Shown in pieces: positions 3,422-31,615 of a stretch of DNA of 64,000 bases. The DNA lies in assembly GCA_945910005.1 (NCBI GenBank), contig OX246744.1, forward strand, positions 1,095,992-1,159,991, written 5' to 3'. This DNA is from Isoperla grammatica. Taxonomy: Eukaryota > Arthropoda > Insecta > Plecoptera > Perlodidae. Numbering within the stretch: position 1 is the first letter of the stretch; each line of letters begins with the position of its first letter. The notes under the pieces were generated by a model that had not been told where the DNA came from, did no database searches, and saw only the letters and a list, made by a program, of their open reading frames with translations. The translations under genes and the position numbers were made by a program.

Positions 3422-3570
3422 CTACTGTACCTGTGTCTGAACGCAGTTGACCCTGGCGTAGATCTCCATGGTGTAGAAACTCGTGAAGAGTCCTGTACCG
3501 GTGATAAGAATCAGTAGGAAGAAGGTGTTGCCGCCCTTGAGTGAGTCTGAAGGTATGAACACTAGGGTGG
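3422..3570 (-). CDS. SOAT: SOAT exon 8 (C-terminal)
   Basis: Acceptor TTGTGTTACAG. It encodes [20 protein letters not shown], then a last helix and [12 protein letters not shown], ending CVQTQVQ-TAG at 3422. In vertebrate SOATs the same helix is followed by a QEWYARQHCP-type sequence and a longer tail, so this tail is short. Four extra copies of its acceptor lie upstream (3571-3722). Confidence 0.88.
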
Positions 3571-6500
3571 CTGTAACACAAGGAGGGTATGAACACTAGG
3601 GTGGCTGTAACACAAGGAGGGTATGAACACTAGGGGGGTTGTAACACAAGGAGGGTATGAACACTAGGGTGGCTGTAACACAAGGAGGGTATGAACACTA
3701 GGGTGGCTGTAACACAAGGAGGGTATGTGAGGCAAGTTGGGAGGAAATTACAAGTGTAATTTTGTAGTAATCGCTGAATTACATTTTGAATTTCTGTTGA
3801 AGAAAACCTTGGCAAAGATATTCAGTCAGGATTACTAAAATTGATGTCTCACCTCAACCCTGGATTTACCGTTGAGCCACCCCCATCGATCCGTCCTCAG
3901 GTTTCTTACAAAACATGATATTTGTATCAATTTATACATTTGGATCGCCAAGTGGGCCGGCAAGTTTGTAGAAGGTAGAAAACAGTGATAATGACCAATA
4001 AAGGAATAACAAAAGTGATGTACGAGAGCCATCTTTGTGGCAATGACGAAGGACCCACTATACTATCGGTTTCTGTTGTGTTTACCTCCTACTCCGATGA
4101 ACATCACGAACATGAGGGGGTAGAAGAAGCCGAAGGAGAACGCGAAGATGTATTCGTGAACAGCGGCGGAGGTTATGAACACTCCCATGGTTGGCAGGAA
4201 CTTCCCCCTGGACTTGAGCAACTCGTGGAGATCTCTGTAGATGTACGTGTAGAGCCAGTCGTGCACTATCATGTTCCACTTCCGGAAGTAGACCCCGTAG
4301 GAGGCGGCGTTCCACCAGTCCTGGGACATAGAGGAAGAGGGGTGAAACTACCACTTAGGCAGGAACCTCCCCCAAGACTCTTCTCTCTAGATCTAGATCC
4401 TCGCTCTCTGTAGGAGGCGGCGTTCCACCAGTCCTGATGACATGCAGAGAATGGTGGATTATCTGAGGGGAAGAACACCACCTACGACTCGTTGGTCCAG
4501 TGGTTAGCATCCCTGATTCCATTGCAGAAGGTTCCGGGTTTAAATCCCGCTTCAGGCAGAAGTTTTTTAACTTCTAATACGGATTCAATTCCATTACTTC
4601 TTGGCTTAGGAATAAGTAAACGGTGACTTTGGAGCCGTCCTAGCAACGAAGCACTCAATAAATTCAAAGTTGTTCTGAATCGGCCTTGTTGATTCTGGCA
4701 TTTGTCCGCGGGTGTTCGCACTGTCCAATCCCTAATTCATATGTTTCGTATTTGAAATATCGATCTTTGATTGGTTATCGCTCACTCGCCGATAGTGTTC
4801 GAAGCCTACAGGGTTGGTTTAGTCACTTTAAATTACAGTCCCCCACTGAAAATCAGTTAAGTTACTGAGTCTCTAAACTCGAAATGTGAATTTATTTATT
4901 TATTCTATTTTTATTATTTGAGGGGTAGTACACCACCCACGATTTACAAGAAACGCATTCACTATATCTCTCTCTCTAAGGGGCTCTCATAGAAAATACT
5001 GTGACCCAATATCATTCCCAAGGACTGATTTTTGACCAAGGTTACGAAGTGCCTAACATGCCATTATATAAGTACGTACACTGGGAAGTAGTTTGGGAAG
5101 ATTTCCAGTGATTGACATTTCTTTCACAATAATGATGCAAGTGATGGCAGTTCCTTACTTGCAACTATTTGAAACTTGTCTGCAAAGTCACTTTGACCTC
5201 TATTGGGTTTCATAGTTAGTAGGGACGTGGACAATTGTCAATTTATATCCACATTAATTTTGAGTGCTGGTTAGCGGAACATTTTCACTCCATTTTGGAC
5301 ACAAAAAGCAGCTCACACTTTTGATTTGCACTGTGGTAGACTGACAAGGAAATTCATCTTGGCAAGATTTAAAATAGTCAGCAAAGGAGGCAATTGAATC
5401 TACCTGGTAAAACATGCGGTCAGCAAAGCGCGTCAGCTCTGCTGCGGCGTTGCTCCAAGCGTGCAGGAAGCAGTAGATACCGCTGACGTCAGCGAGGATA
5501 GCTGGCAACATTGTACCGAAGATCAGCTCCACGTTCTGTTGGGGGGTGGACGAGCGGAGGCCCCAATCTCTGTAGGCCGGCTGGATCCAGCGTTGCAAGA
5601 TGTAGCAGTGGTAGAAGACGACGCAAACCACCTCGAGGAGATGTTTGGCTACGAAGCCCCAGCGGATCTCTTTCGTTCTGCAACGAGGTAGCAATTAACT
5701 GTCAGAAATATCCGTCAAGAACAACAAATAAACGCCGTAAACAAGAAATGTTACAAATGTAATGTAGCATTCCCAAAATTTCGGATAAGAATTGAAATAA
5801 TATGTAAAGAAAGTGAGTAGTTACCTGAGGTAAGTGTGAGTAGTTACCTGGGGTACGTTTGAGTAACTACCTGGGGTAAGTGCGAGTAGTTACCTGGAGT
5901 AAGTGTGAGTAGTTACCTGGGGTAAGTGTGAGTAGTTACCTGGGGCAAGTGTGAGTAGTTACCTGGGGTAAACGTGAGTAGTTACCTGGGGTAAGTGTGA
6001 GTCGTTACCTGGGGTAAGTGTCCCGGTAGACCAGGGTCGGACAGAACAGGAAGTACAGGAAGTGAGAGAAGCCAGGCCCCGGCCAGGTAGATGTCTTGTG
6101 GGCGACTACTCGGGGGGCGTTGGAGCGCACGAAGGCGTGGCTCTTCATCACCATGCGAACCTGGCGGCGGAAACACACAACACACGGTATCAAAGAGGTT
6201 AGAGCCAAGTCAAGTGCATTGCAAGGCGTGGCTCTTCATCACCATACGAACCTGGCGGCGGAAACACACAACACACGGTATCAAAGAGGTTAGAGCCAAG
6301 TCAAGTGCATTGCAAGGCGTGGCTCTTCATCACCATGCGAACCTGGCGGCGGAAACACACAACACACGGTATCAAAGAAGTTAGAACCAAGTCAAGTGCA
6401 TTGCAAGGCGTGGCTCTTCATCACCATGCGAACCTGGCGGCGGAAACACACAACACACGGTATCAAAGAGGTCAGAGCCAAGTCAAGTGCATTGCAAGGC

Positions 6501-9500
6501 GTGGCTCTTCATCACCATGCGAACCTGGCGGCGGAAACACACAACACACGGTATCAAAGAAGTTAGAACCAAGTCAAGTGCATTGCAAGGCGTGGCTCTA
6601 CATCACCATGCGAAGCTGGTGGCGGAAACACACAACACACGGTATCAAAGAGGTTAGAGCCAAGTCAAGTGCATTGCAAGGCGTGGCTCTTCATCACCAT
6701 GCGAACCAGGCGGCGGAAACACACAACACACGGTATCAAAGAAGTTAGAGCCAAGTCAAGTGCATTGCAAGGCGTGGCTCTTCATCACCATGCGAACCAG
6801 GCGGCGGAAACACACAACACACGGTATCAAAGAAGTTAGAACCAAGTCAAGTGCATTGCAAGGCGTGGCTCTTCATCACCATGCGAACCTGGCGGCGGAA
6901 ACACACAACACACTGTATCAAAGAGGTTAGAGCCAAGTCAAGTGCATTGCAAGGCGTGGCGTAGTTGCCTACCTGTTCACACAGTACTGTGATCGCCGTG
7001 GCTGGGGGGAGGGCCCACCTCACAACCAGCACGGCTGGGATTAGAATGAAGGACACCTGGTATACAACTAACACGCCCAACCAAGCGTAGTCCCAGTACA
7101 TCGTCATCGAAGCTGAAACAAAACCATTGACTATGAACTATCTACTGAGGGTCAGCCTTGCCATAATTGTTCCGTACGTTACGTAATTTTAAACGTGGTT
7201 TTTAAGTACTTGTCAACGAAAGTTGCCTGATACGTAACCCTAATGCAAGGAGCTCACAGTTCAAAGCACTCACATGGAGGATGCAACAAGTAGTTCCTGG
7301 CTGCCCAGCAAGAAGCTTGCCTGATACGTAACCCTAATGCAGAGAGCTCAGAGCTCAAAGCACTCACATGGAGGATGCAACAAGTAGTTCCTGGCTGCCC
7401 AGCAAGAAGCTTGCCTGATACGTAACCCTAATGCAAAGAGCTCAGAGCTCTAAGCACTCACATGGAGGATGCAACAAGTAGTTCCTGGCTGCCCAGCAAG
7501 AAGCTTGCCTGATACGTAACCCTAATGCAGAGAGCTCAGAGCTCAAAGCACTCACATGGAGGATGCAACAAGTAGTTCCTGGCTGCCCAGCAAGAAGCTT
7601 GCCTGATACGTAACCCTAATGCAAAGAGCTCAGAGCTCAAAGCACTCACATGGAGGATGCAACAAGTAGTTCCTGACTGCCCTGCAAGAAGCTTGCCTGA
7701 TACGTAACCCAAATGCAGAGAGCTCAGAGCTCAAAGCACTCACATGGAGGATGCAACAAGTAGTTCCTGGCTGCCCAGCAAGAAGCTTGCCTGATACGTA
7801 ACCCTAATGCAAAGAGCTCAGAGCTCAAAGCACTCACATGGAGGATGCAACAAGTAGTTCCTGGCTGCCCAGCAAGAAGCTTGCCTGATACGTAACCCTA
7901 ATGCAGAGAGCTCAGAGCTCAAAGCACTCACATAGTGGATGCAACAAGTAGTTCCTGGCTGCCCAGCAAGAAGCTTGCCTGATACGTAACCCTAATGCAA
8001 AGAGCTCAGAGCTCAAAGCACTCACATGGAGGATGCAACAAGTAGTTCCTGGCTGCCCAGCAAGAAGCTTGCCTGTTACGTAACCCTAATGCAAAGAGCT
8101 CAGAGCTCAAAGCACTCACATGGAGGATGCAACAAGTAGTTCCTGGCTGCCCATCAAGAAGCTTGCCTGATACGTAACCCTAATGCAGAGAGCTCAGAGC
8201 TCAAAGCACTCACATAATGGATGCAGCAAGTAGTTCCTGGCTGCCCAGCAAGAAGCTTCCCTGATACGTTACCCTAATGCAAAGAGCTCAGAGCTCAAAG
8301 CACTCACATGGAGGATGCAGCAAGTAGTTCCTGGCTGCCCAGCAAGAAGCTTGCCTGATACGTAACCCTAATGCAGAGAGCTCAGAGCTCAAAGCACTCA
8401 CATAGTGGATGCAGCAAGTAGTTCCTGGCTGCCCAGCAAGAAGCTTGCCTGATACGTAACCCTAATGCAGAGAGCTCAGAGCTCAAAGCACTCACATAGT
8501 GGATGCAGCAAGTAGTTCCTGGCTGCCCAGCAAGAAGCTTGCCTGATACGTAACCCTAATGCAGAGAGCTCAGAGCTCAAAGCACTCACATAGTGGATGC
8601 AGCAAGTAGTTCCTGGCTGCCCAGCAAGAAGCTTGCCTGATACGTAACCCTAATGCAGAGAGCTCAGAGCTCAAAGCACTCACATAGTGGATGCAGCAAG
8701 TAGTTCCTGGCTGCCCAGCAAGAAGCTTGCCTGATACGTAACCCTAATGCGGAGAGCTCAGAGCTCAAAGCACTCACATGGAGGATGCAACAAGTAGTTC
8801 CTGGCTGCCCAGCAAGAAGCTTGCCTGATACGTAACCCTAATGCAAAGAGCTCAGAGCTCAAAGCACTCACATGGAGGATGCAACAAGTAGTTCCTGGCT
8901 GCCCAACAAGAAGCTTGCCTGATACGTAACCCTAATGCAAAGAGCTCAGAGCTCAAAGCACTCACATGGAGGATGCAACAAGTAGTTCCTGGCTGCCCAG
9001 CAAGAAGCTTGCCTGATACGTAACCCTAATGCAAAGAGCTCAGAGCTCAAAGCACTCACATGGAGGATGCAACAAGTAGTTCCTGGCTGCCCAGCAAGAA
9101 GCTTGCCTGATACGTAACCCTAATGCAAAGAGCTCAGAGCTCAAAGCACTCACATGGAGGATGCATCAAGTAGTTCCTGGCTGCCCAGCAAGAAGCTTGC
9201 CTGATACGTAACCCTAATGCAAAGAGCTCAGTGGTCAAAGCACTCACATGGAGGATGCAACAAGTAGTTCCTGGCTGCCCAGCAAGAAGCTTGCCTGATA
9301 CGTAACCCTAATGCAGAGAGCTCAGAGCTCAAAGCACTCACATGGAGGATGCAGCAAGTAGTTCCTGGCTGCCCAGCAAGAAGCTTGCCTGATACGTAAC
9401 CCTAATGCAAAGAGCTCAGAGCTCAAAGCACTCACATGGAGGATGCATCAAGTAGTTCCTGGCTGCCCAGCAAGAAGCTTGCCTGATACGTCACCCTAAT

Positions 9501-12500
9501 GCAAAGAGCTCAGAGCTCAAAGCACTCACATGGAGGATGCAACAAGTAGTTCCTGGCTGCCCAGCAAGAAGCTTGCCTGATACGTAACCCTAATGCAAAG
9601 AGCTCAGAGCTCAAAGCACTCACATGGAGGATGCAACAAGTAGTTCCTGGCTGCCCAGCAAGAAGCTTGCCTGATACGTAACCCTAATGCAAAGAGCTCA
9701 GAGCTCAAAGCACTCACATGGAGGATGCAACAAGTAGTTCCTGGCTGCCCAGCAAGAAGCTTGCCTGATACGTAACCCTAATGCAGAGAGCTCAGAGCTC
9801 AAAGCACTCACATGGAGGATGCAACAAGTAGTTCCTGGCTGCCCAGCAAGAAGCTTGCCTGATACGTAACCCTAATGCAAAGAGCTCAGAGCTCAAAGCA
9901 CTCACATGGAGGATGCAACAAGTAGTTCCTGGCTGCCCAGCAAGAAGCTTGCCTGATACGTAACCCTAATGCAGAGAGCTCAGAGCTCAAAGCACTCACA
10001 TGGAGGATGCAACAAGTAGTTCCTGGCTGCCCAGCAAGAAGCTTGCCTGATACGTTACCCTAATGCAAAGAGCTCAGAGCTCAAAGCACTCACATGGAGG
10101 ATGCAACAAGTAGTTCCTGGCTGCCCAGCAAGAAGCTTGCCTGATACGTAACCCTAATGCAAAGAGCTCAGAGCTCAAAGCACTCACATGGAGGATGCAA
10201 CAAGTAGTTCCTGGCTGCCCAGCAAGAAGCTTGCCTGATACGTAACCCTAATGCAAAGAGCTCAGAGCTCAAAGCACTCACATGGAGGATGCAACAAGTA
10301 GTTCCTGGCTGCATGCAAGAAGTACGTAACCCTAATACAAAGATCTCAGAGCTCAAAGCACTCACATGGAGGATGCAACAAGTAGTTCCTGGCTGCCCAG
10401 CAAGAAGTACGTAACCCTAATGCAAAGAGCTCAGAGCTCAAAGCACTCACATGGAGGATGCAACAAGTAGTTCCTGACTGCCCAGCAAGAAGCTTGCCTG
10501 ATACGTAACCCTAATGCAGAGAGCTCAGAGCTCAAAGCACTCACATGGAGGATGCAACAAGTAGTTCCTGGCTGCCCAGCAAGAAGCTTGCCTGATACGT
10601 AACCCAAATGCAGAGAGCTCAGAGCTCAAAGCACTCACATGGAGGATGCAACAAGTAGTTCCTGGCTGCCCAGCAAGAAGCTTGCCTGATACGTAACCCT
10701 AAAGCAAAGAGCTCAGAGCTCAAAGCACTCACATGGAGGATGCAACAAGTAGTTCCTGGCTGCCCAGCAAGAAGCTTGCCTGATACGTAACCCTAATGCA
10801 AAGAGCTCAGAGCTCAAAGCACTCACATGGAGGATGCAGCAAGTAGTTCCTGGCTGCCCAGCAAGAAGCTTGCCTGATACGTAACCCTAATGCAAAGAGC
10901 TCAGAGCTCTAAGCACTCACATGGAGGATGCAACAAGTAGTTCCTGGCTGCCCAGCAAGAAGCTTGCCTGATACGTAACCCTAATGCAAAGAGCTCAGAG
11001 CTCAAAGCACTCACATGGAGGATGCAACAAGTAGTTCCTGGCTGCCCAGCAAGAAGTACGTAACCCTAATGCAAAGAGCTCAGAGCTCAAAGCACTCACA
11101 TGGAGGATGCAACAAGTAGTTCCTGGCTGCCCAGCAAGAAGTACGTAACCCTAATGCAAAGAGCTCAGAGCTCAAAGCACTCACATGGAGGATGCAACAA
11201 GTAGTTCCTGGCTGCCCAGCAAGAAGTACGTTACCCTAATGCAAAGAGCTCAGAGCTCAAAGCACTCACATGGAGGATGCAACAAGTAGTTCCTGGCTGC
11301 CCAGCAAGAAGTACGTAACCCTAATGCAGAGAGCTCAGTGGTCAAAGCACTCACATGGAGGATGCAACAAGTAGTTCCTGGCTGCCCAGCAAGAAGCTTG
11401 CCTGATACGTAACCCTAATGCAGAGAGCTCAGAGCTCAAAGCACTCACATGGAGAATGCAGCAAGTAGTTTCTGACTGCCCTGCAAGAAGCTTGCCTGAT
11501 ACGTAACCCTAATGCAAAGAGCTCAGAGCTCAAAGCACTCACATGGAGGATGCAACAAGTAGTTCCTGGCTGCCCAGCAAGAAGCTTGCCTGATACGTAA
11601 CCCTAATGCAGAGAGCTCAGAGCTCAAAGCACTCACATGGAGGATGCAACAAGTAGTTCCTGGCTGCCCAGCAAGAAGCTTGCCTGATACGTAACCCTAA
11701 TGCAGAGAGCTCAGAGCTCAAAGCACTCACATGGAGGATGCAACAAGTAGTTCCTGGCTGCCCAGCAAGAAGCTTGCCTGATACGTAACCCTAATGCAGA
11801 GAGCTCAGAGCTCAAAGCACTCACATGGAGAATGCAGCAAGTAGTTTCTGACTGCCCTGCAAGAAGCTTGCCTGATACGTAACCCTAATGCAAAGAGCTC
11901 AGTGGTCAAAGCACTCACATGGAGGATGCAACAAGTAGTTCCTGGCTGCCCAGCAAGAAGCTTGCCTGATACGTAACCCTAATGCAGAGAGCTCAGAGCT
12001 CAAAGCACTCACATGGAGGATGCAACAAGTAGTTCCTGGCTGCCCAGCAAGAAGCTTGCCTGATACGTAACCCTAATGCAGAGAGCTCAGAGCTCAAAGC
12101 ACTCACATGGAGGATGCAGCAAGTAGTTTCTGTCTGCCCTGCAAGAAGCTTGCCTGATACGTAACCCTAATGCAAAGAGCTCAGAGCTCAAAGCACTCAC
12201 ATGGAGGATGCAACAAGTAGTTCCTGGCTGCCCAGCAAGAAGCTTGCCTGATACGTAACCCTAATGCTGAGAGCTCAGAGCTCAAAGCACTCACATGGGG
12301 AATGCAGCAAGTAGTTTCTGACTGCCCTGCAAGAAGCTTGCCTGATACGTAACCCTAATGCAGAGAGCTCAGAGCTCAAAGCACTCACATGGGGAATGCA
12401 GCAAGCAGTTTCTGACTGCCCTGCAAGAAGCTTGCCTGATACGTAACCCTAATGCAGAGAGCTCAGAGCTCAAAGCACTCACATGGAGGATGCAACAAGT

Positions 12501-14518: not shown

Positions 14519-14567
14519 CTGGAATATGTAAGACACGTGACATGGTTGCTCACAGGGACAACTTACT

Positions 14568-15010
14568 CCCGCAAGTTACTCTTGCAAGTTTCTCCCACAA
14601 GCTATTCCCGCAAGTTACTCCCGCAAATTACTCCCACAAATTACTCCCGCAAGCTACTCCCGCAAGCTACTCCCGCAAGTTACTCTCGCAAATTACTTCC
14701 GCAAATTACTCCCGCAAATAACTCCCGCAAGTTACTCCCGCATGTTACTACCGCATGTTACTCCCGCATGTTAAACCGCAAGTCACTCCCGCAAATAACT
14801 CCCGCCAGTTACTCCCGCATGCTACTCCCGCATGTTACTCCCGCATGTTACTCCCGCATGTTACTCCCGCAAGTTACTCCCGCAAGTACCTCCCGCAAAT
14901 AACTCCCGCAAGTTACTCCCGCAAGTTACTCCCGCATGTTACTACCACATGTTATCCCGCATGTTACTCCCGCAAATTACTACCGCAAGTTACTCCCGCA
15001 AGTTACTCCC
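14568..15010. repeat. 13-bp minisatellite, about 33 copies
   Basis: Tandem units of CCCGCAAGTTACT with variants (AAATTACT, ATGTTACT). It begins about 50 bases beyond the SOAT exon 1 acceptor, so it lies in the intron upstream of exon 1 but, unlike the other arrays, does not include the splice site. The ORFs across it are repeat artefacts (39-base, 13-codon periodicity). Confidence 0.95.
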
Positions 15011-15120
15011 AATAAAGTATCTCCCAAAGAAATTTGTTCCTTGTTAGAGAATAACGATTGTGATCACGGGATACGGTCTGGTTTGCTCTACGACGAACAG
15101 TTGCCGAGATAATCGAAGAA

Positions 15121-15412
15121 ACCTAACCTAACCTAACCTAACCTAACCTAACCTAACCTAACCTAACCTAACCTAACCTAACCTAACCTAACCTAACCTA
15201 ACCTAACCTAACCTAACCTAACCTAACCTAACCTAACCTAACCTAACCTAACCTAACCTAACCTAACCTAACCTAACCTAACCTAACCTAACCTAACCTA
15301 ACCTAACCTAACCTAACCTAACCTAACCTAACCTAACCTAACCTAACCTAACCTAACATAACCTAACCTAACCTAACCTAACCTAACCCAACCGAACCCA
15401 ACCCAACCCAAC
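15121..15412. repeat. Interstitial telomeric repeat (CCTAA/TTAGG)n
   Basis: About 53 nearly perfect ACCTA pentamers, ending in degenerate CCCAA/CCGAA units. TTAGG is the ancestral arthropod telomere repeat. Here it lies between a gene and unique sequence, so it is internal unless it marks an assembly junction. Confidence 0.96.
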
Positions 15413-16011
15413 CTCGCGTGACCACATATTATACAGCCGCAGTACTCGAGCAAAACAACCAATCCAAACCAGCACGATAACTTCCTCTTAAACATATTAA
15501 ACCCACTTTAAAAATACGTATTTTTTTAAACTACCTGCCGTGCCGTGCTATTGTGGGGGGCGTCCCCCCCCCCACACACAACATTGTCTCGTGTTTGGAA
15601 TACATTTTTACAGTTAGTGCGACTCTGTGCTTCTCTCCTCCCCCCCCCCACTCCGAAATATATTCCTGCGTACGCCACTGACTACCATTATCACTGAGTT
15701 TATTTCATGTAAACGCAAACAATCATCTCAATTTTCGGAGTACGCCTACGTTCTTAGTTATGGTAATAGATACGACTGAAGGTTATTGAAGTTTGGTATT
15801 CCAATGTCTCTACTTTGTTGACTGTTATGTACAAGAGACGGACAATTTTACAGGTAATAAAGGTAACTGTAAGTAACAATATACCTCAAATAAACTGTTT
15901 TTTAATCTTACATCTTCGCGCCAAAAAATATTTACTTTATATTTTCAGGGCCGTCCTCAGAAATGGGACTTAGTAGCCTATAGTGCCCTACCATCAGCAA
16001 AGTGTGGTGCT

Positions 16012-17672: not shown

Positions 17673-18010
17673 TGTTGCTCGTATCGAGTAAAATGGCAAC
17701 GTATAAAAAAAAAGACAGGGCCTAGTACATATTACTAAAGCAATCTTCAATTTTGTAACGGTTGCCATGCTATGACGGGTTATATTCGCAAAGGTCATTC
17801 AAGTTTTTTACATAAATAAGTTAAAATAGATAACCGTTAAACAAATGAAGCTGAAACATTTAATACTTATAATACTTATAATACTTAGTTTATACACAGA
17901 TTCTTTGAGATAAATATGTTTATAAAATTAATATTGTCTTAAATTTGAACTTATTGTTAAGTTAGGTACAAATGAGCTTTCGTACAGTATCTTCCTCTGA
18001 GGAAAGTTTG

Positions 18011-18113
18011 GTGCTTTAAGCACGAATCATTGTGCTAAAGCCCGTCACTTTACCTTGCATTTAGCACGAAGTACACAATCATTGTGCTTAAGCCTGTCAC
18101 TATACCTTGCAAC
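18011..18113. repeat. Two-copy ~50-bp direct repeat
   Basis: The segment with ATCATTGTGCT-AAGCC-GTCACT-TACCTTGCA occurs twice in a row. The rest of 17673-18490 shows nothing recognisable. Confidence 0.7.
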
Positions 18114-18493
18114 TCGTTCAGGCTGAATCCTAAGTCACACACTTTAGTAATAATCCGCGTTTGGCTCTGATTCGCAATCTCGCCAACTGACAGTTAATAT
18201 CGTCCGCACGTGATTGATCGGTGCGTGCGAACTATCGCATGAGGCCTTCAGATCGATCACCGATAGCACTAATCGCAATCGTCGACCTTTGATCCTTCTT
18301 CGTTCCGATAGAATATGTAAAAAATATCGCTCAAACGTCAGAAACAAAACAACAAACAAAACCTTGTGGAGATTGTCAGTCATAATACAATGCAAGGTGA
18401 TTAGTATTAAAAACACAATTGAGAATGTGACTGAGGTTGCAAGACGTTGAAATAGATTAGTATTTATCGTGATCGATTATATTTTTTTGAACA

Positions 18494-18723
18494 GGGCCTG
18501 GATAACAAGAGGTTCGAAGTCTTTTCTCTGGTCTTAACTCTCCTAACGGACTAGACCCAGGTCACATGATGAAGTTACTAATATTCCTGGTCGGAACAAA
18601 GACGTTCCAATAATGTTTTTAAAAATCTCTAAGCAAATATCGGCCTGGATTGACTTTCTAAGTCAGGCCGGTCTTAGAGTTAAGACGAGAAGAATACTTA
18701 AGGCCTCTTGTGAATCCAGACCC
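18494..18723. mobile_element. MITE, about 230 bp with ~48-bp imperfect TIRs
   Basis: The left end GGGCCTGGATAACAAGAGG ... GGTCTTAACTCT is matched inverted by AGAGTTAAGACGAG ... CCTCTTGTGAATCCAGACCC on the right. The interior is AT-rich and non-coding. Confidence 0.75.
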
Positions 18724-20290: not shown

Positions 20291-20317
20291 TACCGTTTCA
20301 ACGTAACTCAAGAATGC

Positions 20318-20617
20318 TTCGCAAAATAAAATAAAAATAAATAAATTCACATTTAGAGTCTACCCACTCAGTAACGAAACTGATTTTCAGTGGGCGACTA
20401 AACCAACCCTGTAGGCTCCGAACACCATCGACGAGTGAGCGATAACCAATCAAAGATCGATGTTTCAAATACGAAACATATAAATCAGTGATTGGACAGT
20501 GCGAACACCTGCGGACAAATGCCAGAATCAACAAGGCCGATTCAGAACCTCTTTGAATTTATTGAGTGCTTCGTTGCTAGGACGGCTCCAAAGTATCCGT
20601 TTACTTATTCCTAAGAC
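20318..20617 (-). mobile_element. SINE family 1, 5'-truncated copy
   Basis: Same body and AT-rich tail as the full-length copy at 4488-4913, in reverse orientation. It lacks the tRNA-like head and breaks off within TTACTTATTCCTAAG. It lies just downstream of the UNC93-like gene. Confidence 0.85.
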
Positions 20618-20796
20618 TACTACTACTAAATACAGAAATGGTAATCGGAACACAACCCTACTGACTATGATGTTATGAATATTAAGCGTTGATCTGTAGT
20701 CTTCACAGCAACACGGGAGTAGTGTTAGGCTGTTTAGCATTGTCGAATGTAACCGGAAACACAATCTTGCGCAGTTTCAACACGAGGAGAATCACT

Positions 20797-21017
20797 TCAA
20801 GGCGCCAACTTCTTCCTCGCCTTCCTCTTCTCCTCCACCTCAATGGTCACGTATCCCCCCATGCCGACAGCAAGCAGCGCTATCACTATGTACAGCTTGG
20901 TCTCTGTACACAGGAACCCGCTGTAGCCGTAAGCTATGATGAAGCCCAGAGACTCCCACAACCGGAAGTTGCTGTAGGCGGCTTCCTCTCGGCCCGGAAA
21001 CAGAATGCCGCACAGCG
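20797..21017 (-). CDS. UNC93-like exon 8 (C-terminal)
   Basis: Acceptor ATTCTTTTCAG. It encodes ALCGILFPGREEAAYSNFRL, two helices and a basic cytosolic tail (VEEKRKARKKLAP) ending TGA at 20797, which is normal for the family. Confidence 0.95.
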
Positions 21018-24000
21018 CTGAAAAGAATACACATAAAGACGTGTTTTTTTAAACTATAATGAGAAAATTAAGACAGTATGAGAGTATAGTTAATGAGTAC
21101 AATGCACGGCCTGTATGTTGCGAGTGTTGCTGTGGACTCACCGTTGATCTGTACCAGCCAGACTCCATCGCAGACGCCCCACAGACCCGAGTTGACGAAG
21201 AACAGAATCTTCTCGTCTGGGTGAGGCTTCCAGAACAGAAGTAACAGCAGGACAGCCAACTGCAGAAAACATAGATACCATGTACGGAATAGAAGTTCTT
21301 ATGTAACTGGCAATATATTCTATAAACAAAGTTCAAAATAAAATTACGTATGCTGAAAGCAGCATTCTCTGGCAGTCAAAAATATCTTTCAATAAAGTGT
21401 GCTACATAATTAATAGAATAACAGTTACTGGTACTATGCAATCATTCACTCAGTCAGTCACTCAGTCAGTCAGTCACTCAGTCAGTCACTCTCTCACTCA
21501 GTCAATCAGTCAGTCAGTCACTCTCTCAGTCACTCACTCAGTCACTCACTCACACTCACCTGTAGCGTGGCGGCTCCACACACGACCGGCAAGCGCCCGG
21601 TAATCTTGACCAGCCAGCCGGCAGTCAACGCCGAAATAGAGTTACACAGACCGTAGCAGATCATGACATAGCCCACGTTCTGTATCCCCCATGCGCACGC
21701 AACATACGACTGAAACACACGGAGAGCAGCCAATTGTTTATAAGAAAGAAAATAAATAAAATACATACATTCACATTTAGAGTCTACCCACTCAGTAACT
21801 AAACTGATTTGCAGTGGGGGACTTTAATTTAAAGTGACTAAACCAACCCTGTAGGTTTCGAACACCATCGACGAGTGAGCGATAACCAATCAAAGATCGA
21901 TATTTCAAATACAAAACATATGAATCAGTGATTGGACAGTGCGAACACCTGCGGACAAATGCCAGAATCGACAAGGCCGATCCAGAAAAACTTTGAATTT
22001 ATTGAGTGCTTCGTTGCTAGGACGGCTGCAAAGTCACCGTTTACTTATTCCTAAGCCAAGAAGTAATGGAATTGAATCCACATTAGAAGTTAAAAACTTC
22101 TGCCTGTAGCGGGATTTGAGCCCGGGACCTTCTGCATTGGAAACAGGGATGCTAACCACTGGACCAACGAGCCACCTAAGATTTGTATGTTATTCTGTCC
22201 AGTGACGTAGCATGGACGCTTACCTCTACCATGGGACTAGAGGTAGAGTGTAGACCTAGGAATATAGTACAGAGAGCCACGGCACCGACTACGGCTATGC
22301 TATATCTTACATTATACCCAGTTGAGGGGACTGTCCAATTCCTTATCTGCAGCCACAGATTGTGTCCGGGATTATAGCCTACAGCCCCTAGCAGAACTTT
22401 AATGGCTATCTAAATGGAACAATCTCATTAAATTGATCCATTATGATCACTTACTTGACTTGATGTAGAGGGTCCGGTCTGGGCCCGGGGAAGAATAGGC
22501 CCAGAGAGACTCTGCTAGTCGTAAGAGGCGACAAAAGAAGACCATGTCCCTTCCCTCCCACTGTCCCATTGAATATTTATCCTCCCACTTGGCCCTGCCC
22601 TCCCTTGCTGGACTCCCGTATGACGACCCACGCGACGTACAATGTATCTGATTCGGATGTGGCTTTATTCTTCATCGTCATCTTTCTCATCTTCATCATC
22701 ACCCGCTCATCGTCTCGATTAGCCATTGTTGCAAACATATGATACGTTAAGCCCCATAAATCAATCAATCAATTGATGTAGAGGGTTGTTGTTGTTGTTA
22801 CCGATGTGAAGTCAGCGCCCATGAAGGCCTGTCCCACCCCCAGCCAGGCAGTCAGGGGGAGAAGCAGAATCTGGTTCCTCTCCATGAGTAGCTTGATGGT
22901 GATGGCCAGGAGCTGCATCCCCGTGAGGCCGCTGCCACTTCCCTCCCGGTCACCCTCGCCATACCTGCAAGACCAGGCATCTATAGTTGTCCCAAGACTA
23001 CCTTACACATGCTTTCGTCACAGGTGACTGGTTCGTAGCCAATCAGCGATCGTTATCTGCGCGCGCTTGTCTCGGGCGGTTCGCCGGTTGGCTACGTTTG
23101 CCCCGGATGTGACGAAAGCAGGTGTAAAGTAATCTTGGGTATAACATTATTCATAGCTTTCCTCAGTGCAGTTTCGCGCCCTTTTTATTATATCTGCTTA
23201 TAAATGGTCTAATGCCAGTTAAGAGTAGGCCAATATGGCCATTGTGACATCAAGTGAAGACTTGAGGGTGAACGGTCCAGTCCAAAGCTTTCCTCCATCA
23301 CAAGAAGAGTCTTGCAAACACTCCTCACCAACGCAACAGGTCTCTGCTCACCTGTCAAGGGAGTCTACCCCGAAGGCCACTATCAACACAGCGGCCACCA
23401 TACAGGCGAGGTAGATCCCAGCTATGCAACAGGTCTCTGCACACCTGTCAAGGGAGTCTACCCCGAAGGCCACTATCAACACAGCGGCCACCATACAGGC
23501 CAGGTAGATCCCAGCTATGCAACAGGTCTCAGCTCACCTGTCAAGGGAGTCTACCCCGAAGGCCACTATCCACACAGCGGCCACCATACAGGCCAGGTAG
23601 ATCCCAGCTATGCAACAGGTCTCAGCTCACCTGTCAAGGGAGTCTACCCCGAAGGCCACTATCAACACAGCGGCCACCATACAGGCCAGGTAGATCCCAG
23701 CTATGGTGAAGATCTTCTCGTCCGAGGGTCGTGTCAAGTTAGGGTTGTCCAAAGCGGTGGACGGACAGAAGTTGGCGCCACACTTGTCTCGCACGTCCAC
23801 GTAGCTGATGTTTGCGTGTTCGTCGCCGGCCAACACTGAAGATAAATGCACTGGTCACTTTCCCTGCACTCAATGAGCTCTACTTACTCTTGTACTCCTA
23901 GTGGTTGCAAAACTTACAAAATAATTAACTTGAAGCTCATCAATACAATACAGTACTACTTTTAAATTATTTAACGGTAAAAATATACGACAGCGAGTCA

Positions 24001-27000
24001 ATTAAAGATACCCATTCCTAGCAATCATAAACTTGACCCAATATTACGTTTACAGAGGCCTTAAGACATGAGGAAACCCATGAAGCAAATGGAAAAACGT
24101 GACTAAAAACAAAACACGCTATCGTTTACCAAATATTTTGTTGTAAACCAGTAATATATTCCGTAGTAATTTGTTTTGAAACTCCAACCTGCTTTTTTTT
24201 CTTTTTTTCAATAATTCTTAGACGTGCGAGCATCTTGTTCCACTTTATGCTTGATAACGGGCAAACTGATTTGATACTACTCCTCCTTCTATTATGACCA
24301 TGCAACTATTATACTTGTACAACTGGTAACACATTATAGTTATAGCTGTGTTGTTACCAGTAGAAGAGATAAGGTTGCCCCAGACTTGAGCAAACTGGAA
24401 GAACATGAAGAAGATTCCAAAGAACCTGACAGTAAGAACTTCCGAGCTGATTCCTGTGATCTTCTGATACTTCTCCGCGACAACACTAAGATAGGTACAT
24501 TTGCCGCACCACAGTGGGCCGCCTCCGAACCTGTAAGCATACAGTGAGTGGTAGCCTTCTCATACATGGGCCAGTCTAATAGTTCCAAACATTATTTTCT
24601 GCCTCTAGTTCGTACCATCTACTTGACACAGGTACAAACATAATAATTTACGATGGTATTTTGGATACCTGAACTAAAGAAGACAATAGCTCTAACATAT
24701 CTCACAGATTCAGATGCCTAACATCGACATGGGAGTTTTCTGGGTCGATTTCGCTACATCAACACTTCTTTTCATCGACATCTCCTTCCTTCCTCAGTCT
24801 TCTAACATGTGAAACCTTCGTCAATCGGGTCGTTCACCGAACAACTATGATTCATGCTCGCAATCTTCATACTATACTTGCACCACTCACCCCACGAACA
24901 GTGCTGCCGGTATCAAGGTGTAGAACGTGGCGTGGAACTGAGCCATGATGTAAGGCATGTAGGCAATGAAGGACAGAGCTACAGCCCACTTGCATCCCAA
25001 CCATCTGAAACATGTGGCGTTCAGTGTTACATGTTACATGTTACATGTTACATGTTCAGCTGTGACAGAGCAACACGATACACATCTATGCTTGACTCTC
25101 AGTAAGATCTGGGAGAAACATTATCCCAAGCATGTGGTTTGGTTTGGACAGACCTTACGGACAATGAGCAACTATGAATAACACTTTGAGTGCATAGTAT
25201 TCGGTAGGAACAATGCCTGAAGCTGTTTGTCTACCGCTGACTACCACTTCAACATATACGCTAGTCGACTAGTGGCAGAATTCATACGCATGCGCAGTGA
25301 CAGCGAGTTAAATAAATTGCTTCAATATCTGTGACGTCATTCATAAAATGTTAATATTTGCAATTTTTTAAACATATTTCTTCTGTAGTGAATCCACACA
25401 CCTGATATGACGACGGGTAGGAAGAGATTGGACAGTATGAGGGACCAATGACCTTGCAGGGACCCACCCACCTGATCATGACGACGAGTAGGAAGAGATT
25501 GGACAGTATGAGGGACCAATGACCTTGCAGGGACCCACCCACCTGATCATGACGACGGGCAGGAAGAGATTGGACAGTATGAGGGACCAATGACCTTGCA
25601 GTGACCCACCCACCTGATCATGACGACGGGCAGGAAGAGATTGGACAGTATGAGGGACCAATGACCTTGCAGGGACCCACCCACCTGATCATGACGACGG
25701 GTAGGAAGAGATTGGACAGTATGAGGGACCAATGACCTTGCAGGGACCCACCCACCTGATCATGACGACGGGCAGGAAGAGATTGGACAGTATGAGGGAC
25801 CAATGACCTTGCAGGGACCCACCCACCTGATCATGACGACGGGTAGGAAGAGATTGGACAGTATGGGGGACCAATGACCTTGCAGGGACCCACCCACCTG
25901 ATCATGACGACGGGCAGGAAGAGATTGGACAGTATGAGGGACCAATGACCTTGCAGGGACCCACCCACCTGATCATGACGACGGGTAGGAAGAGATTGGA
26001 CAGTATGAGGGACCAATGACCTTGCAGGGACCCACCCACCTGATCATGACGACGGGCAGGAAGAGATTGGACAGTATGAGGGACCAATGACCTTGCAGTG
26101 ACCCACCCACCTGATCATGACGACGGGTAGGAAGAGATTGGACAGTATGAGGGACCAATGACCTTGCAGGGACCCACCCACCTGATCATGACGACGGGTA
26201 GGAAGAGATTGGACAGTATGAGGGACCAATGACCTTGCAGGGACCCACCCACCTGATCATGACGACGGGCAGGAAGAGATTGGACAGTATGAGGGACCAA
26301 TGACCTTGCAGGGACCCACCCACCTGATCATGACGACGGGCAGGAAGAGATTGGACAGTATGAGGGACCAATGACCTTGCAGGGACCCACCCACCTGATC
26401 ATGACGACGGGTAGGAAGAGATTGGACAGTATGAGGGACCAATGACCTTGCAGGGACCCACCCACCTGATCATGACGACGGGCAGGAAGAGATTGGACAG
26501 TATGAGGGACCAATGACCTTGCAGTGACCCACCCACCTGATCATGACGACGGGTAGGAAGAGATTGGACAGTATGAGGGACCAATGACCTTGCAGGGACC
26601 CACCCACCTGATCATGACGACGGGTAGGAAGAGATTAGACAGTATGAGAGACCAATGACCTTGCAGGGACCCACCCACCTGATCATGACGACGGGCAGGA
26701 AGAGATTGGACAGTATGAGGGACCAATGACCTTGCAGGGACCCACCCACCTGATCATGACGACGGGCAGGAAGAGATTGGACAGTATGAGGGACCAATGA
26801 CCTTGCAGGGACCCACCCACCTGATCATGACGACGGGCAGGAAGAGATTGGACAGTATGAGGGACCAATGACCTTGCAGGGACCCACCCACCTGATCATG
26901 ACGACGGGCAGGAAGAGATTGGACAGTATGAGGGACCAATGACCTTGCAGGGACCCACCCACCTGATCATGACGACGGGCAGGAAGAGATTGGACAGTAT

Positions 27001-30000
27001 GAGGGACCAACCTTGCAGGGACCCACCCACCTGATCATGACGACAGGTAGGAAGAGATTGGACAGTATGAGGGACCAATGACCTTGCAGGGACCCATTCA
27101 CCTGATCATGACGACGGGTAGGAAGAGATTGGACAGTATGAGGGACCAATGACCTTGCAGGGACCCACCCACCTGATCATGACGACGGGCAGGAAGAGAT
27201 TGGACAGTATGAGGGACCAATGACCTTGCAGGGACCCACCCACCTGATCATGACGACGGGTAGGAAGAGATTGGACAGTATGAGGGACCAATGACCTTGC
27301 AGGGACCCACCCACCTGATCATGACGACGGGCAGGAAGAGATTGGACAGTATGAGGGACCAACCTTGCAGGGACCCACCCACCTGATCATGACGACGGGT
27401 AGGAAGAGATTGGACAGTATGAGGGACCAATGACCTTGCAGGGACCCACCCACCTGATCATGACGACGGGCAGGAAGAGATTGGACAGTATGAGAGACCA
27501 ACCTTGCAGGGACCCACCCACCTGATCATGACGACGGGCAGGAAGAGATTGGACAGTATGAGGGACCAATGACCTTGCAGGGACCCACCCACCTGATCAT
27601 GACGACGGGCAGGAAGAGATTGGACAGTATGAGGGACCAATGACCTTGCAGGGACCCACCCACCTGATCATGACGACGGGCAGGAAGAGATTGGACAGTA
27701 TGAGGGACCAATGACCTTGCAGGGACCCACCCACCTGATCATGACGACCGGCAGGAAGAGATTGGACAGTATGAGAGACCAACCTTGCAGGGACCCACCC
27801 ACCTGATCATGACGACGGGTAGGAAGAGATTGGACAGTATGAGGGACCAATGACCTTGCAGGGACCCACCCACCTGATCATGACGACGGGCAGGAAGAGA
27901 TTGGACAGTATGAGGGACCAACCTTGCAGGGACCCACCCACCTGATCATGACGACGGGCAGGAAGAGATTGGACAGTATGAGGGACCAATGACCTTGCAG
28001 GGACCCACCCAACTGATCATGACGACGGGCAGGAACAGATTGGACAGTATGAGAGACCAACCTTGCAGGGACCCACCAACCTGATCATGACGACGGGTAG
28101 GAAGAGATTGGACAGTATGAGGGACCAATGACCTTGCAGGGACCCACCCACCTGATCATGACGACGGGCAGGAAGAGATTGGACAGTATGAGGGACCAAC
28201 CTTGCAGGGACCCACCCACCTGATCATGACGACGGGTAGGAAGAGATTGGACAGTATGAGGGACCAATGACCTTGCAGGGACCCACCCACCTGATCATGA
28301 CGACGGGCAGGAAGAGATTGGACAGTATGAGGGACCAACCTTGCAGGGACCCACCCACCTGATCATGACGACGAGCAGGAAGAGATTGGACAGTATGAGG
28401 GACCAATGACCTTGCAGGGACCCACCCACCTGATCATGACGACGAGCAGGAAGAGATTGGACAGTATGAGGGACCAACCTTGCAGGGACCCACCCACCTG
28501 ATCATGACGACGGGCAGGAAGAGATTGGACAGTATGAGGGACCAATGACCTTGCAGGGACCCACCCACCTGATCATGACGACGGGCAGGAAGAGATTGGA
28601 CAGTATGAGGGACCAACCTTGCAGGGACCCACCCACCTGATCATGACGACGGGCAGGAAGAGATTGGACAGTATGAGGGACCAATGACCTTGCAGGGACC
28701 CACCCACCTGATCATGACGACGGGCAGGAAGAGATTGGACAGTATGAGAGACCAACCTTGCAGGGACCCACCCACCTGATCATGACGACGGGCAGGAAGA
28801 GATTGGACAGTATGAGGGACCAATGACCTTGCAGGGACCCACCCACCTGATCATGACGACGGGCAGGAAGAGATTGGACAGTATGAGGGACCAACCTTGC
28901 AGGGACCCACCCACCTGATCATGACGACGGGCAGGAAGAGATTGGACAGTATGAGGGACCAATGACCTTGCAGGGACCCACCCACCTGATCATGACGACG
29001 GGCAGGAAGAGATTGGACAGTATGAGGGACCAACCTTGCAGGGACCCACCCACCTGATCATGACGACGGGCAGGAAGAGATTGGACAGTATGAGGGACCA
29101 ATGACCTTGCAGGGACCCACCCACCTGATCATGACGACGGGCAGGAAGAGATTGGACAGTATGAGAGACCAACCTTGCAGGGACCCACCCACCTGATCAT
29201 GACGACGGGTAGGAAGAGATTGGACAGCATGAGAGACCAATGACCTTGCAGGGACCCACCCACCTGATCATGACGACGGGTAGGAAGAGATTGGACAGCA
29301 TGAGAGACCAACCTTGCAGGGACCCACCCACCTGATCATGACGACGGGTAGGAAGAGATTGGACAGTATGAGGGACCAATGACCTTGCAGGGACCCACCC
29401 ACCTGATCATGACGACGGGTAGGAAGAGATTGGACAGTATGAGGGACCAACCTTGCAGGGACCCACCCACCTGATCATGACGACGGGTAGGAAGAGATTG
29501 GACAGTATGAGGGACCAATGACCTTGCAGGGACCCACCCACCTGATCATGACGACGGGTAGGAAGAGATTGGACAGTATGAGGGACCAACCTTGCAGGGA
29601 CCCACCCACCTGATCATGACGACGGGTAGGAAGAGATTGGACAGTATGAGGGACCAATGACCTTGCAGGGACCCACCCACCTGATCATGACGACGGGTAG
29701 GAAGAGATTGGACAGTATGAGGGACCAATGACCTTGCAGGGACCCACACACCTGATCATGACGACGGGCAGAAAGAGATTGGACAGTATGAGAGACCAAT
29801 GACCTTGCAGGGACCCACCCACCTGATCATGACGACGGGCAGGAAGAGATTGGACAGTATGAGGGACCAACCTTGCAGGGACCCACACACCTGATATGAC
29901 GACGGGTAAGAAGAGATTGGACAGTATGAGGGACCAATGACCTTGCAGGGACCCACACTTCTGATCATGACGACGGGCAGGAAGAGATTGGACAGTATGA

Positions 30001-30777
30001 GGGACCAATGACCTTGCAGGGACCCACCCACCTGATCATGACGACGGGTAGGAAGAGATTGGACAGTATGAGGGACCAATGACCTTGCAGGGACCCACAC
30101 TTCTGATCATGACGACGGGTAGGAAGAGATTGGACAGTATGAGGGACCAATGACCTTGCAGGGACCCACCCACCTGATCATGACGACGGGCAGGAAGAGA
30201 TTGGACAGTATGAGGGACCAATGACCTTGCAGGGACCCACCCACCTGATCATGACGACGGGCAGGAAGAGATTGGACAGTATGAGGGACCAATGACCTTG
30301 CAGGGACCCACCCACCTGATCATGACGACGGGTAAGAAGAGATTGGACAGTATGAGGGACCAATGACCTTGCAGGGACCCACACTTCTGATCATGACGAC
30401 GGGCAGGAAGAGATTGGACAGTATGAGGGACCAATGACCTTGCAGGGACCCACCCACCTGATCATGACGACGGGTAGGAAGAGATTGGACAGTATGAGGG
30501 ACCCGTAGATCGTGGCCAATGAGGCGACGCCCAGTCCCGCGTCACTGTTGATCGTGCTCTGCAGGTTGCCCGCGCCCTGGAACGCGGTGAAGTGGATCAT
30601 GAAAGCGAAGCTCAGAACGCAGACGTTGCGTATTATTCTGCGTCGTTCTGCGGGATCTTCGGTGGCGACCAGTTGCGTGGAGGACACAGATGTCTTGGGG
30701 TCACCTCGGGCGTCGTCGTCCTTCTTCGCCACGCTGGCCGCCACTGTGGCCAGCTCGGAGTCTCTCCTTGTAGACAT
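20797..30777 (-). CDS. UNC93-like multipass membrane protein, complete, 8 exons
   Basis: Joining 30777-30458, 25004-24891, 24530-24358, 23835-23631, 22964-22802, 21709-21560, 21259-21142 and 21017-20797 gives 487 codons from ATG to TGA, with every junction in phase. The UNC-93 family (MFS fold, about 11-12 helices) includes the potassium-channel regulator UNC-93 and UNC93A. Diagnostic blocks are FQGAGNLQSTIN, IRWLGCKW...YMPYIMAQF, LWCGKCTYLSVVAEKYQKIT, VRFFGIFFMFFQFAQVWGNL, DEKIFTIAGIYLACMVAA and GLWGVCDGVWLVQIN. No frameshift or premature stop is seen. Introns 1 and 4 are filled or invaded by exon-junction minisatellites and intron 6 by a tetranucleotide-type repeat starting at the donor. 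Confidence 0.95.
21142..21259 (-). CDS. UNC93-like exon 7
   Basis: Acceptor TTTTCTGCAG; donor AACG|GTGAGT. It encodes LAVLLLLLFWKPHPDEKILF and GLWGVCDGVWLVQIN, a highly conserved UNC93 block. Leaves in phase 1. Confidence 0.96.
21434..21559 (-). repeat. Imperfect (GTGA/GACT)n repeat starting at the exon 6 donor
   Basis: On the minus strand the intron opens GTGAGTGTGAGTGAGTGACT and continues for about 120 bases as GTGA, GACT and GAGA tetramers. The donor sequence itself is the first unit of the repeat, so alternative GTGAGT donors recur along it. Confidence 0.9.
21560..21709 (-). CDS. UNC93-like exon 6
   Basis: Acceptor GTGTTTCAG; donor CTACAG|GTGAGTG. It encodes SYVACAWGIQNVGYVMICYG and AGWLVKITGRLPVVCGAATL, in phase 0 at both ends. 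A GTGA/GACT-type simple repeat starts at the donor and extends ~120 bases into the intron. Confidence 0.94.
21735..22176 (-). mobile_element. SINE family 1, near full-length copy
   Basis: Reverse-oriented copy with the tRNA-like head at the high-coordinate end (B box complement GGGATTTGAGCCCGGGACC; A box complement GGATGCTAACCACTGGACC), the same body as 4488-4913 and an AT-rich tail at 21735-21760. It lies in UNC93-like intron 5. Confidence 0.88.
22224..22402 (-). CDS. Possible orphan exon inside UNC93-like intron 5
   Basis: A ~59-codon frame with no stop reads KVLLGAVGYNPGHNLWLQIR, then NWTVPSTGYNVRYSIAVVGA and VALCTIFLGLHSTSSPMVE, ending at a good donor (GAG|GTAAGCG). It contains an N-W-T glycosylation sequon and a plausible membrane segment. 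The acceptor is uncertain and its phase does not fit exons 5 and 6, which already join cleanly. It may be an unrelated or alternative exon, or a chance open frame. Confidence 0.25.
22410..22790. other. UNC93-like intron 5, remainder
   Basis: No gene recognised. GCTAGTCGTAAGAGGCGACA at about 22514-22533 resembles sequence common in insect interspersed repeats, but no element boundary can be drawn. Confidence 0.35.
22802..22964 (-). CDS. UNC93-like exon 5
   Basis: Acceptor GGTCTTGCAG; donor TCG|GTAACA. It encodes YGEGDREGSGSGLTGMQLLA and LLLPLTAWLGVGQAFMGADF, matching the central cytosolic loop and seventh helix of UNC93 proteins. Ends in phase 0. Confidence 0.95.
23333..23705 (-). repeat. 93-bp minisatellite carrying the exon 4 donor, 4 copies
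   Basis: Four 93-bp units each hold (minus strand) ATAGCTGGGATCTACCTGGC ... CCCTTGACAG|GTGAGC plus 19 intronic bases. Ninety-three is 31 codons, so the frame is kept between copies, but GACAGGTGA puts a TGA stop at every donor; use of an outer donor would truncate the protein. The units differ by only a few bases. Confidence 0.96.
23631..23835 (-). CDS. UNC93-like exon 4, 3' end amplified
   Basis: Acceptor TTTATCTTCAG; donor GACAG|GTGAGC. It encodes a probable extracellular loop (DKCGANFCPSTALDNPN) and DEKIFTIAGIYLACMVAAVL with IVAFGVDSLDR. The last 74 bases plus the donor are present in four tandem 93-bp copies. The copy continuous with the unique 5' part is the real exon end. Confidence 0.93.
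23836..24357. other. UNC93-like intron 3
   Basis: Unique AT-rich intron; no repeat or element recognised. Confidence 0.6.
24358..24530 (-). CDS. UNC93-like exon 3
   Basis: Acceptor ATGCTTACAG; donor CTACTG|GTAACA. It encodes FGGGPLWCGKCTYLSVVAEK and VRFFGIFFMFFQFAQVWGNL, very close to UNC93A-type proteins. It leaves in phase 1. Confidence 0.96.
24891..25004 (-). CDS. UNC93-like exon 2
   Basis: Acceptor ATGTTTCAG; donor GTGGG|GTGAGTG. It encodes WLGCKWAVALSFIAYMPYIM and AQFHATFYTLIPAALFVG. Phase 2 to phase 2; the junction completes the family block IRWLGCKW. Confidence 0.95.
25392..30465 (-). repeat. 71/68-bp minisatellite carrying the exon 1 donor, about 72 copies; fills intron 1
   Basis: The minus-strand unit is CTCATACTGTCCAATCTCTT, CCTACCCGTCGTCATGATCAG| and the donor GTGGGTGGGTCCCTGCAAGG, then TCATTGGTCC. 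It thus has ~41 coding bases of exon 1 (SLILSNLFLPVVMIR) plus the donor. The 68-bp form lacks three bases (CAACC in place of CAATGACC). From about 27776 to 29590 the two forms alternate strictly, giving a 139-bp higher-order repeat. The many ~60-codon minus-strand ORFs here are repeat artefacts. Intron 1 is 5453 bases, about 93% array. Confidence 0.97.
30458..30777 (-). CDS. UNC93-like exon 1
   Basis: ATG at 30777-30775. A hydrophilic cytosolic N-terminus (MSTRRDSELATVAASVAKKD) is followed by NVCVLSFAFMIHFTAFQGAG, NLQSTINSDAGLGVASLATI and SLILSNLFLPVVMIR. Donor ATCAG|GTGGGTGGG, phase 2. Its last ~41 bases plus the donor form the unit of the intron 1 array. A different minisatellite begins 3-20 bases 5' of the ATG. 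Confidence 0.92.
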
Positions 30778-30784
30778 AGTGGAA

Positions 30785-31612: not shown

Positions 31613-31615
31613 TGT

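Follow-up and report, generated by a model that had tools for sequence, protein, structure and literature searches.

Minisatellites built from exon–intron junctions in two adjacent genes of the plecopteran Isoperla grammatica resemble amphioxus mirages

The stretch of DNA analysed here, called the window throughout, comprises 64,000 nucleotides of the plecopteran insect Isoperla grammatica (assembly GCA_945910005.1, contig OX246744.1, positions 1,095,992 to 1,159,991 of the forward strand). Its minus strand carries a sterol O-acyltransferase-like gene (SOAT, 2575–14518) and an UNC93-like gene (20797–30777), and within both genes lie minisatellites whose units combine exon and intron sequence. 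Tandem Repeats Finder (TRF) returned 40 rows on the window, and with a unit of at least 20 bp and at least four copies as the criterion, we count 11 distinct arrays, six inside the two gene bodies and five elsewhere. All six minisatellites within the gene bodies have units that span a splice junction, four at donors and two at acceptors.

Both genes were modelled by hand. The SOAT model has nine exons (14518–14418, 13682–13509, 12725–12577, 7112–6973, 6160–6009, 5677–5404, 4320–4086, 3570–3431 and 2655 to about 2575), its 5′ end and exact 3′ end being provisional, and the UNC93-like model has eight coding exons (30777–30458, 25004–24891, 24530–24358, 23835–23631, 22964–22802, 21709–21560, 21259–21142 and 21017–20797) with the ATG at 30777 and the stop codon at 20797. 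Each model has a single open frame, and GT-AG is found in all 15 modelled introns of the two genes. The predicted SOAT protein carries the family domain PF03062 (Pfam) and matched 312 proteins with E ≤ 0.001, headed by the Periplaneta sterol O-acyltransferase (E 4e-136, 45% identity). For the UNC93-like protein, whose homologues carry PF05978, 630 proteins were found among 7998 candidates scored; the best E, 6.5e-204, belongs to an unnamed protein, the top named homologue is the Periplaneta UNC93-like protein, and the top named ones are 61–68% identical and mostly from Polyneoptera, one caddisfly included. Phylogenetic trees placed the window sequence with Orthoptera for UNC93-like (support 0.865) and for SOAT (0.520, within a polyneopteran group at 0.964).

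Exon borders were checked by alignment across all 15 introns against 12 named homologues per gene, picked from 120 listed. Among the junctions that bear arrays, SOAT exon 4–5 and UNC93-like exon 1–2 are ungapped against the homologues, and SOAT exon 5–6, SOAT exon 7–8 and UNC93-like exon 4–5 have small gaps a few residues off. The weakest is SOAT exon 3–4, with gaps in 5 of the 12 homologues. Elsewhere, SOAT exon 1–2 is poorly conserved, one-column or small gaps occur near SOAT exon 2–3 and 8–9, the UNC93-like exon 3–4 border precedes a variable loop, and the junctions without listed gaps are ungapped in the stretch shown. Judged by these alignments, the six array-bearing junctions appear well placed, SOAT exon 3–4 being the least conserved of them.

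The longest array carries the donor of UNC93-like exon 1 (25394–30503; 71 bp × 72.8, 73 units), and its unit consists of 48 bp of exon tail and 23 bp of intron, with GT in 69/73. The donor array of SOAT exon 3 (7223–12614; 94 bp × 57.9, 58 units) repeats about 42 bp of exon tail, the donor and 52 bp of intron, with GT in 58/58. Exon 5 of SOAT bears both an acceptor array (6132–6960; 91 bp × 9.1, nine units of 61 bp of intron end and 30 bp of exon head, AG in 7/9) and a donor array (5813–6021; 23 bp × 9.1, nine units of 14 bp of exon tail and 9 bp of intron, GT in 9/9). A branch-point-like word, CTAAC, is present in the intron part of the acceptor unit, and the whole of intron 4 (812 bp) is made up of 800 bp of this array and 12 nt. 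The remaining two are the acceptor array of SOAT exon 8 (3552–3727; 34 bp × 5.2, five units of 14 bp of intron end and 20 bp of exon head, AG in 4/5) and the donor array of UNC93-like exon 4 (23333–23705; 93 bp × 4.0, four units of 76 bp of exon tail and 17 bp of intron, GT in 4/4). All six lie on the minus strand, and copy numbers and coordinates are those of TRF. A preliminary description of this DNA had named six such arrays, and TRF and the gene models recover each of them at or very near the place given there, with the same exon numbering and with units across the same four donors and two acceptors. Its copy range of 4 to about 72 is right at the lower end, while the longest array has 73 units.

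On the gene side, the arrays overlap their exons by 38 bp (SOAT exon 3), 29 bp (SOAT exon 5 acceptor), 13 bp (SOAT exon 5 donor), 19 bp (SOAT exon 8), 46 bp (UNC93-like exon 1) and 75 bp (UNC93-like exon 4). The copy that touches the exon body is always the outermost one, the first in 4/4 donor arrays and the last in 2/2 acceptor arrays, and no TRF array lies wholly within a modelled exon. The offset of the junction differs in every unit, with an exon part of 14–76 bp and an intron part of 9–61 bp, and in none of the six arrays does an edge coincide with a splice site. Every unit includes the junction at only one end of its intron, whose other splice site is modelled beyond the array. Short partial copies terminate four of the arrays (10, 6, 2 and 1 bp by the TRF coordinates), which is what ordinary duplication between short repeats would leave.

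The copies other than the one adjoining the exon, here called decoys, have largely kept their splice sites. Counting the functional units as well, 140 of the 144 donor units retain GT and 11 of the 14 acceptor units retain AG. Identity to the functional donor 9-mer extends to 51/57 decoys of SOAT exon 3 and 63/72 of UNC93-like exon 1; in the two short donor arrays it is found in 2/3 (UNC93-like exon 4) and 0/8 (SOAT exon 5), where 7/8 decoys differ from it at +6 alone. The functional acceptor 15-mer is kept in 5/8 (SOAT exon 5) and 3/4 (SOAT exon 8) decoys. Read-through beyond all five donors tested, the four array donors and that of UNC93-like exon 6, meets an in-frame stop within 1–64 nt. 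Translation from upstream acceptor copies was tested for 13, three of them lacking AG, and ran into a stop in 12. The nearest exon 8 acceptor copy has no stop in the short stretch translated, and its 34 extra bases shift the frame. Since stops follow the donors and 12 of the 13 acceptor copies, decoy use would be predicted to truncate the protein.

In both long arrays, decoys vary at least as much in their exon part as in their intron part (57/2393 versus 49/2909 for SOAT exon 3; 51/3454 versus 19/1587 for UNC93-like exon 1), and in SOAT exon 3 the exon-part variants are spread over the positions modulo 3 as 15, 16 and 26. Among the short arrays, where counts are small, either part can be the more variable one. 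A coding role of the decoys was considered and rejected because of the stops and, for the long arrays, the missing constraint on the exon part. At the splice-site columns, decoys vary less than at other columns in two of the six arrays and more in the other four, with a twofold difference in the longest (16/648 versus 54/4393). Our reading is that the decoys are intron DNA that has been homogenised and experiences little constraint, if any.

Homogenisation with the functional edge copy set apart was compared in the two long arrays, and both have a homogenised interior from which this copy is left out. In SOAT exon 3 the functional copy differs from the others in a mean of 7.6 columns and decoys differ from each other in 4.9; for UNC93-like exon 1 the values are 4.2 and 3.1. 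The latter array also has a two-unit higher-order period, even lags showing fewer differences than odd ones. For the acceptor array of SOAT exon 5, the unit at the edge is identical to the consensus. Units are 89–97% alike (TRF), with 26 distinct types among the 73 of UNC93-like exon 1 and 31 among the 58 of SOAT exon 3.

Further junctions show related events, bringing those affected to six to eight of the 31 listed for the two genes. Intron 6 of SOAT contains a partial, decayed second copy of the exon 7 acceptor region (4355–4433, minus strand), in which the exon head stands at 4433 after an AG, 113 nt upstream of the real acceptor; local alignment matched 4428 with 4315 and 4202 with 4367, and a second piece of exon 7 lies near 4367. 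At the donor of UNC93-like exon 6 starts a GTGA/GACT-type repeat (21442–21559, minus strand; 21442–21552 in TRF). A 24-mer scan, counting exon and intron positions with the arrays themselves removed, found near copies at 6/31 junctions, 0/591 exon positions and 100/2092 intron positions, the intron matches reducing to a few loci. The statement that exons have no near copies was dropped because a finer scan matched SOAT exon 7 positions 4202 and 4314. An 18/50-bp minisatellite at 30784–31620 ends 6 bp before the UNC93-like ATG and has TCCTAG words inside; it might hold an acceptor of the 5′ untranslated region, in which case it would be a further junction array.

Several other features were observed in the window. 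At 54931–58840 (minus strand), exon-bearing repeats stand in tandem with copies 600–971 bp apart. They include five exon-like stretches of 128–208 nt, each preceded by TTTCCAG and followed by GTGAGT; three have a length of 144 nt, and two of these three share an open frame. Near 59758 there are a TATA-like box and what may be a first exon. It is possible that these repeats correspond, at the level of whole exons, to the junction arrays. The same region contains an inverted repeat (58499–58728) with 94-nt arms that are 98% complementary and 42 nt apart, and by eye hairpin-like stretches resembling it occur near 45.8, 50.2 and 51.1 kb. Between the two genes, 59 TTAGG-type repeats (15120–15414) consist of what we take to be the insect telomere unit, and beside them a 13-bp repeat (14559–15010) stops 40 bp short of the first exon in the SOAT model. 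A dispersed repeat occurs in SOAT intron 6 (4540–4830), in UNC93-like intron 5 (21770–22190) and just downstream of the UNC93-like gene (20340–20640); the latter two copies were matched by alignment and the first by eye, and the repeat has a tRNA-like head by eye, yet ARAGORN found no tRNA in it. A 212-aa open reading frame (41102–41740, minus strand) has no Pfam match, and by eye we take it to resemble the C-terminal part of a reverse transcriptase of a retrotransposon without long terminal repeats. Pfam searches with 10 open reading frames, chosen from 35 of at least 100 aa in the window, gave one sub-threshold match, and the window contains no RNA gene by Rfam at the gathering threshold and none by ARAGORN.

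Two comparisons bear on whether the recurrence at junctions exceeds chance. In the first, the arrays were collapsed to one unit and placed at random over the introns and junctions of the two genes, with at least 5 bp required on each side of a junction for straddling. Random placement gives an expected 1.28 straddling arrays of six and P(6/6) = 3.5e-5; with at least 10 bp on each side the values are 1.10 and 4.4e-6. A GC-matched version was used because exons and units are rich in guanine and cytosine (GC) relative to non-array introns (units 0.48–0.57, exons 0.557, non-array introns 0.393). Requiring GC ≥ 0.45 raises the expectation to 2.61 of six (P = 0.0029), or 2.33 with 10 bp on each side (P = 0.00049). 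The second comparison set junction-straddling seed positions against window DNA outside both genes, with seed lengths varied from 30 to 90 bp under three GC settings. For a 70-bp seed there are 6 arrays in 1830 junction positions versus 5 in 38730 outside (p = 3.2e-6), and with GC ≥ 0.48 there are 6 in 1103 versus 1 in 6369 (p = 6e-5). Over all settings the junction rate is 15 to 119 times the outside rate, with p from 0.0005 to 7e-9, where the outside DNA may contain unrecognised exons or genes and includes, scored as outside, the minisatellite before the UNC93-like ATG. The arrays outside the genes also include one at 48571–48667 (21 bp × 4.7) with a GC of 0.06. The recurrence is thus beyond chance, as the preliminary description had suspected, and its two genes are indeed unrelated. 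However, they are adjacent on one strand and therefore do not count as independent regions, and the window was chosen because of the junction arrays.

We read the excess as real local enrichment at junctions, a large part of which, if not the whole, may be due to selection acting together with GC-rich exon DNA; the whole of it is not explained in this way. We consider it probable that the arrays are ‘mirage’-type minisatellites in an insect, that is, ordinary tandem duplications across junctions that were tolerated and then grew and were homogenised by unequal exchange. A tandem duplication of 23–94 bp, seeded by short chance repeats, would land across an exon–intron border. The mRNA could stay intact, with splicing predicted to use the copy that touches the exon body and keeps a good splice site, and the remaining copies would sit in the intron as decoys. 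Because the exon-adjoining copy keeps a good splice site, the event would be a harmless extension of the intron, whereas the same duplication wholly within an exon would change the protein. The array would then grow and homogenise by unequal exchange or slippage, the functional edge copy apart, which is the pattern of the two long arrays. At least in part, the excess at junctions would reflect exon DNA that is GC-rich and prone to minisatellites, together with purifying selection that spares mostly the straddling events.

Several points weigh against this account. Once GC ≥ 0.48 is required, a threshold equal to the lowest unit GC and, like the other thresholds, chosen after the arrays had been seen, random placement still expects 3.06 of six with P(6/6) = 0.0073, or 2.76 with P = 0.0012 when 10 bp on each side are demanded; at the same GC setting, junctions exceed outside DNA in array rate by a factor of 22 to 119 across the seed lengths (p 0.0005 to 8e-8). 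Composition and purifying selection thus explain much of the excess and not all of it. All of these statistics are post hoc and come from two adjacent genes. Furthermore, the exon part is the less variable one in the SOAT exon 5 acceptor array (3/240 versus 12/488 in the intron part) and in the UNC93-like exon 4 array (2/228 versus 2/51). A possible hint of coding constraint comes from the UNC93-like exon 1 decoys, where 45 of the 51 variants in the exon part share a single position modulo 3; with 10 variable columns we read this skew as a few shared variants, yet it counts against a purely neutral reading. Finally, any rotation of the unit is possible, so the exact segment that was duplicated cannot be fixed.

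The preliminary description had offered two explanations, a duplication process linked to junctions or selection that tolerates only those duplications that keep a usable splice site. The former would be a process tied to transcription or splicing that duplicates DNA preferentially at junctions, for instance through R-loops, a polymerase paused at exon ends or reverse-transcribed splicing intermediates. It agrees with the excess at junctions: 6/6 gene-body minisatellites straddle one, none is purely intronic though intronic seed positions outnumber junction ones (6154 versus 1830 at 70 bp), the array rate is far lower in the DNA outside both genes and the GTGA-type repeat begins right at the UNC93-like exon 6 donor. 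The anatomy, however, gives it no support. The position of the junction within the unit varies from array to array, which disfavours a mechanism initiated at the splice site; no minisatellite edge falls on a splice site, donors and acceptors are both affected and part of the bias is explained by GC-rich exon sequence. We therefore regard a junction-linked process as improbable. The second explanation stands as a filter, given that no array lies wholly in an exon and that the exon-adjoining copy is outermost, but alone it predicts about 1.3 of six arrays at junctions and about 3 of six with exon-like GC. With GC composition added, tolerance is the better of the two explanations. A bolder generalisation, in which splice junctions are genuine genome-wide hot spots of tandem duplication in this lineage beyond GC and selection and introns routinely grow by amplifying their own ends, appears rather unlikely, if less so than the junction-linked process in its own right.

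A regional effect would attribute the arrays to a minisatellite-prone domain, for example near a chromosome end, and the junction bias to chance and the choice of a striking window. The window does contain five more arrays (unit at least 20 bp, at least four copies) and the 295-bp TTAGG-type block, the two genes are neighbours and the window was picked for the feature. However, a higher regional mutation rate does not predict units that straddle junctions, and 6/11 arrays fall in the 1830 junction-straddling positions while 5/11 fall in the 38730 outside (70-bp seed), which leaves this explanation a small chance, similar to that of a junction-linked process. Positive selection for the arrays, with spare sites aiding the splicing of an enlarged intron, is a very unlikely cause; recruitment of the U1 small nuclear ribonucleoprotein along the intron would presumably be one way. 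The retention of GT in 140/144 and AG in 11/14 units and the exact donor 9-mer in 51/57 and 63/72 decoys would suit it, but recent homogenisation, with units 89–97% alike, yields the same pattern, and only in 2/6 arrays do the splice-site columns vary less than other columns; in the longest they vary twice as much. An artefact of mis-modelled exons or misassembled repeats seems less credible still. Arrays of 5 kb are difficult to assemble, but the exon borders fit the homologues and the units differ in a structured way, with 26 distinct types of 73 and 31 of 58. Ordinary duplication across junctions with subsequent tolerance thus remains the explanation that we prefer.

The phenomenon is already known from amphioxus, where the accessible parts of PMC3087553 describe minisatellite-like duplications of intron–exon borders in globin genes under the name ‘mirages’, taken from earlier work on Adh3. 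Both 5′ and 3′ borders occur there, length is unstable, the edges of clusters escape homogenisation and reverse transcription polymerase chain reaction suggested undisturbed splicing (PMC3087553). Cases in the parts available comprise Adh3 and the globins BflGb6 and BflGb9 (PMC3087553), with PGBD5 added and TnC named in PMC3902484. The arrays of the window share with them tandem units that include exon and intron sequence across a 5′ or 3′ boundary (four donor and two acceptor arrays), the amphioxus units being 10–160 bp long (PMC3087553, PMC3902484), and, in the two long arrays, concerted evolution inside with the edges excluded. They differ in taxon, array length and density: they are found in an insect rather than a lancelet, reach 58 and 73 units compared to 6 and 3 for the BflGb6 haplotypes, and affect, within a pair of adjacent genes, six to eight junctions out of 31.

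Other systems are related more distantly. Minisatellites at exon–intron borders are also described for human segmental duplications, where the variable repeats average 30-bp units, in the portion of PMC2812944 available to us; that work interprets them as a source of novel introns in recent paralogues, whereas the units of the window lengthen an existing intron. In Drosophila, intron gain by tandem duplication of an exon segment bearing AG/GT likewise duplicates splice signals; however, according to the accessible part of PMC2891723 the duplication lies within coding sequence and makes a new intron, and the units of the window hold one intron end. Intron gain by tandem genomic duplication, in which one duplication supplies both ends, is accordingly not what the six arrays represent. 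The available part of a paper on Sparus myostatin does not mention junction-spanning units, and no insect report of junction arrays was found in the literature searched, whose coverage of subscription journals was poor.

The case could allow the growth of introns to be measured directly. It also offers a setting for the choice of the spliceosome among near-identical sites, with 58 donors in one intron and 69 of 73 intact in another. Mirages in the literature found are confined to lancelets, and the dense set of long arrays described here, from an insect, suggests a process that is not restricted to cephalochordates.

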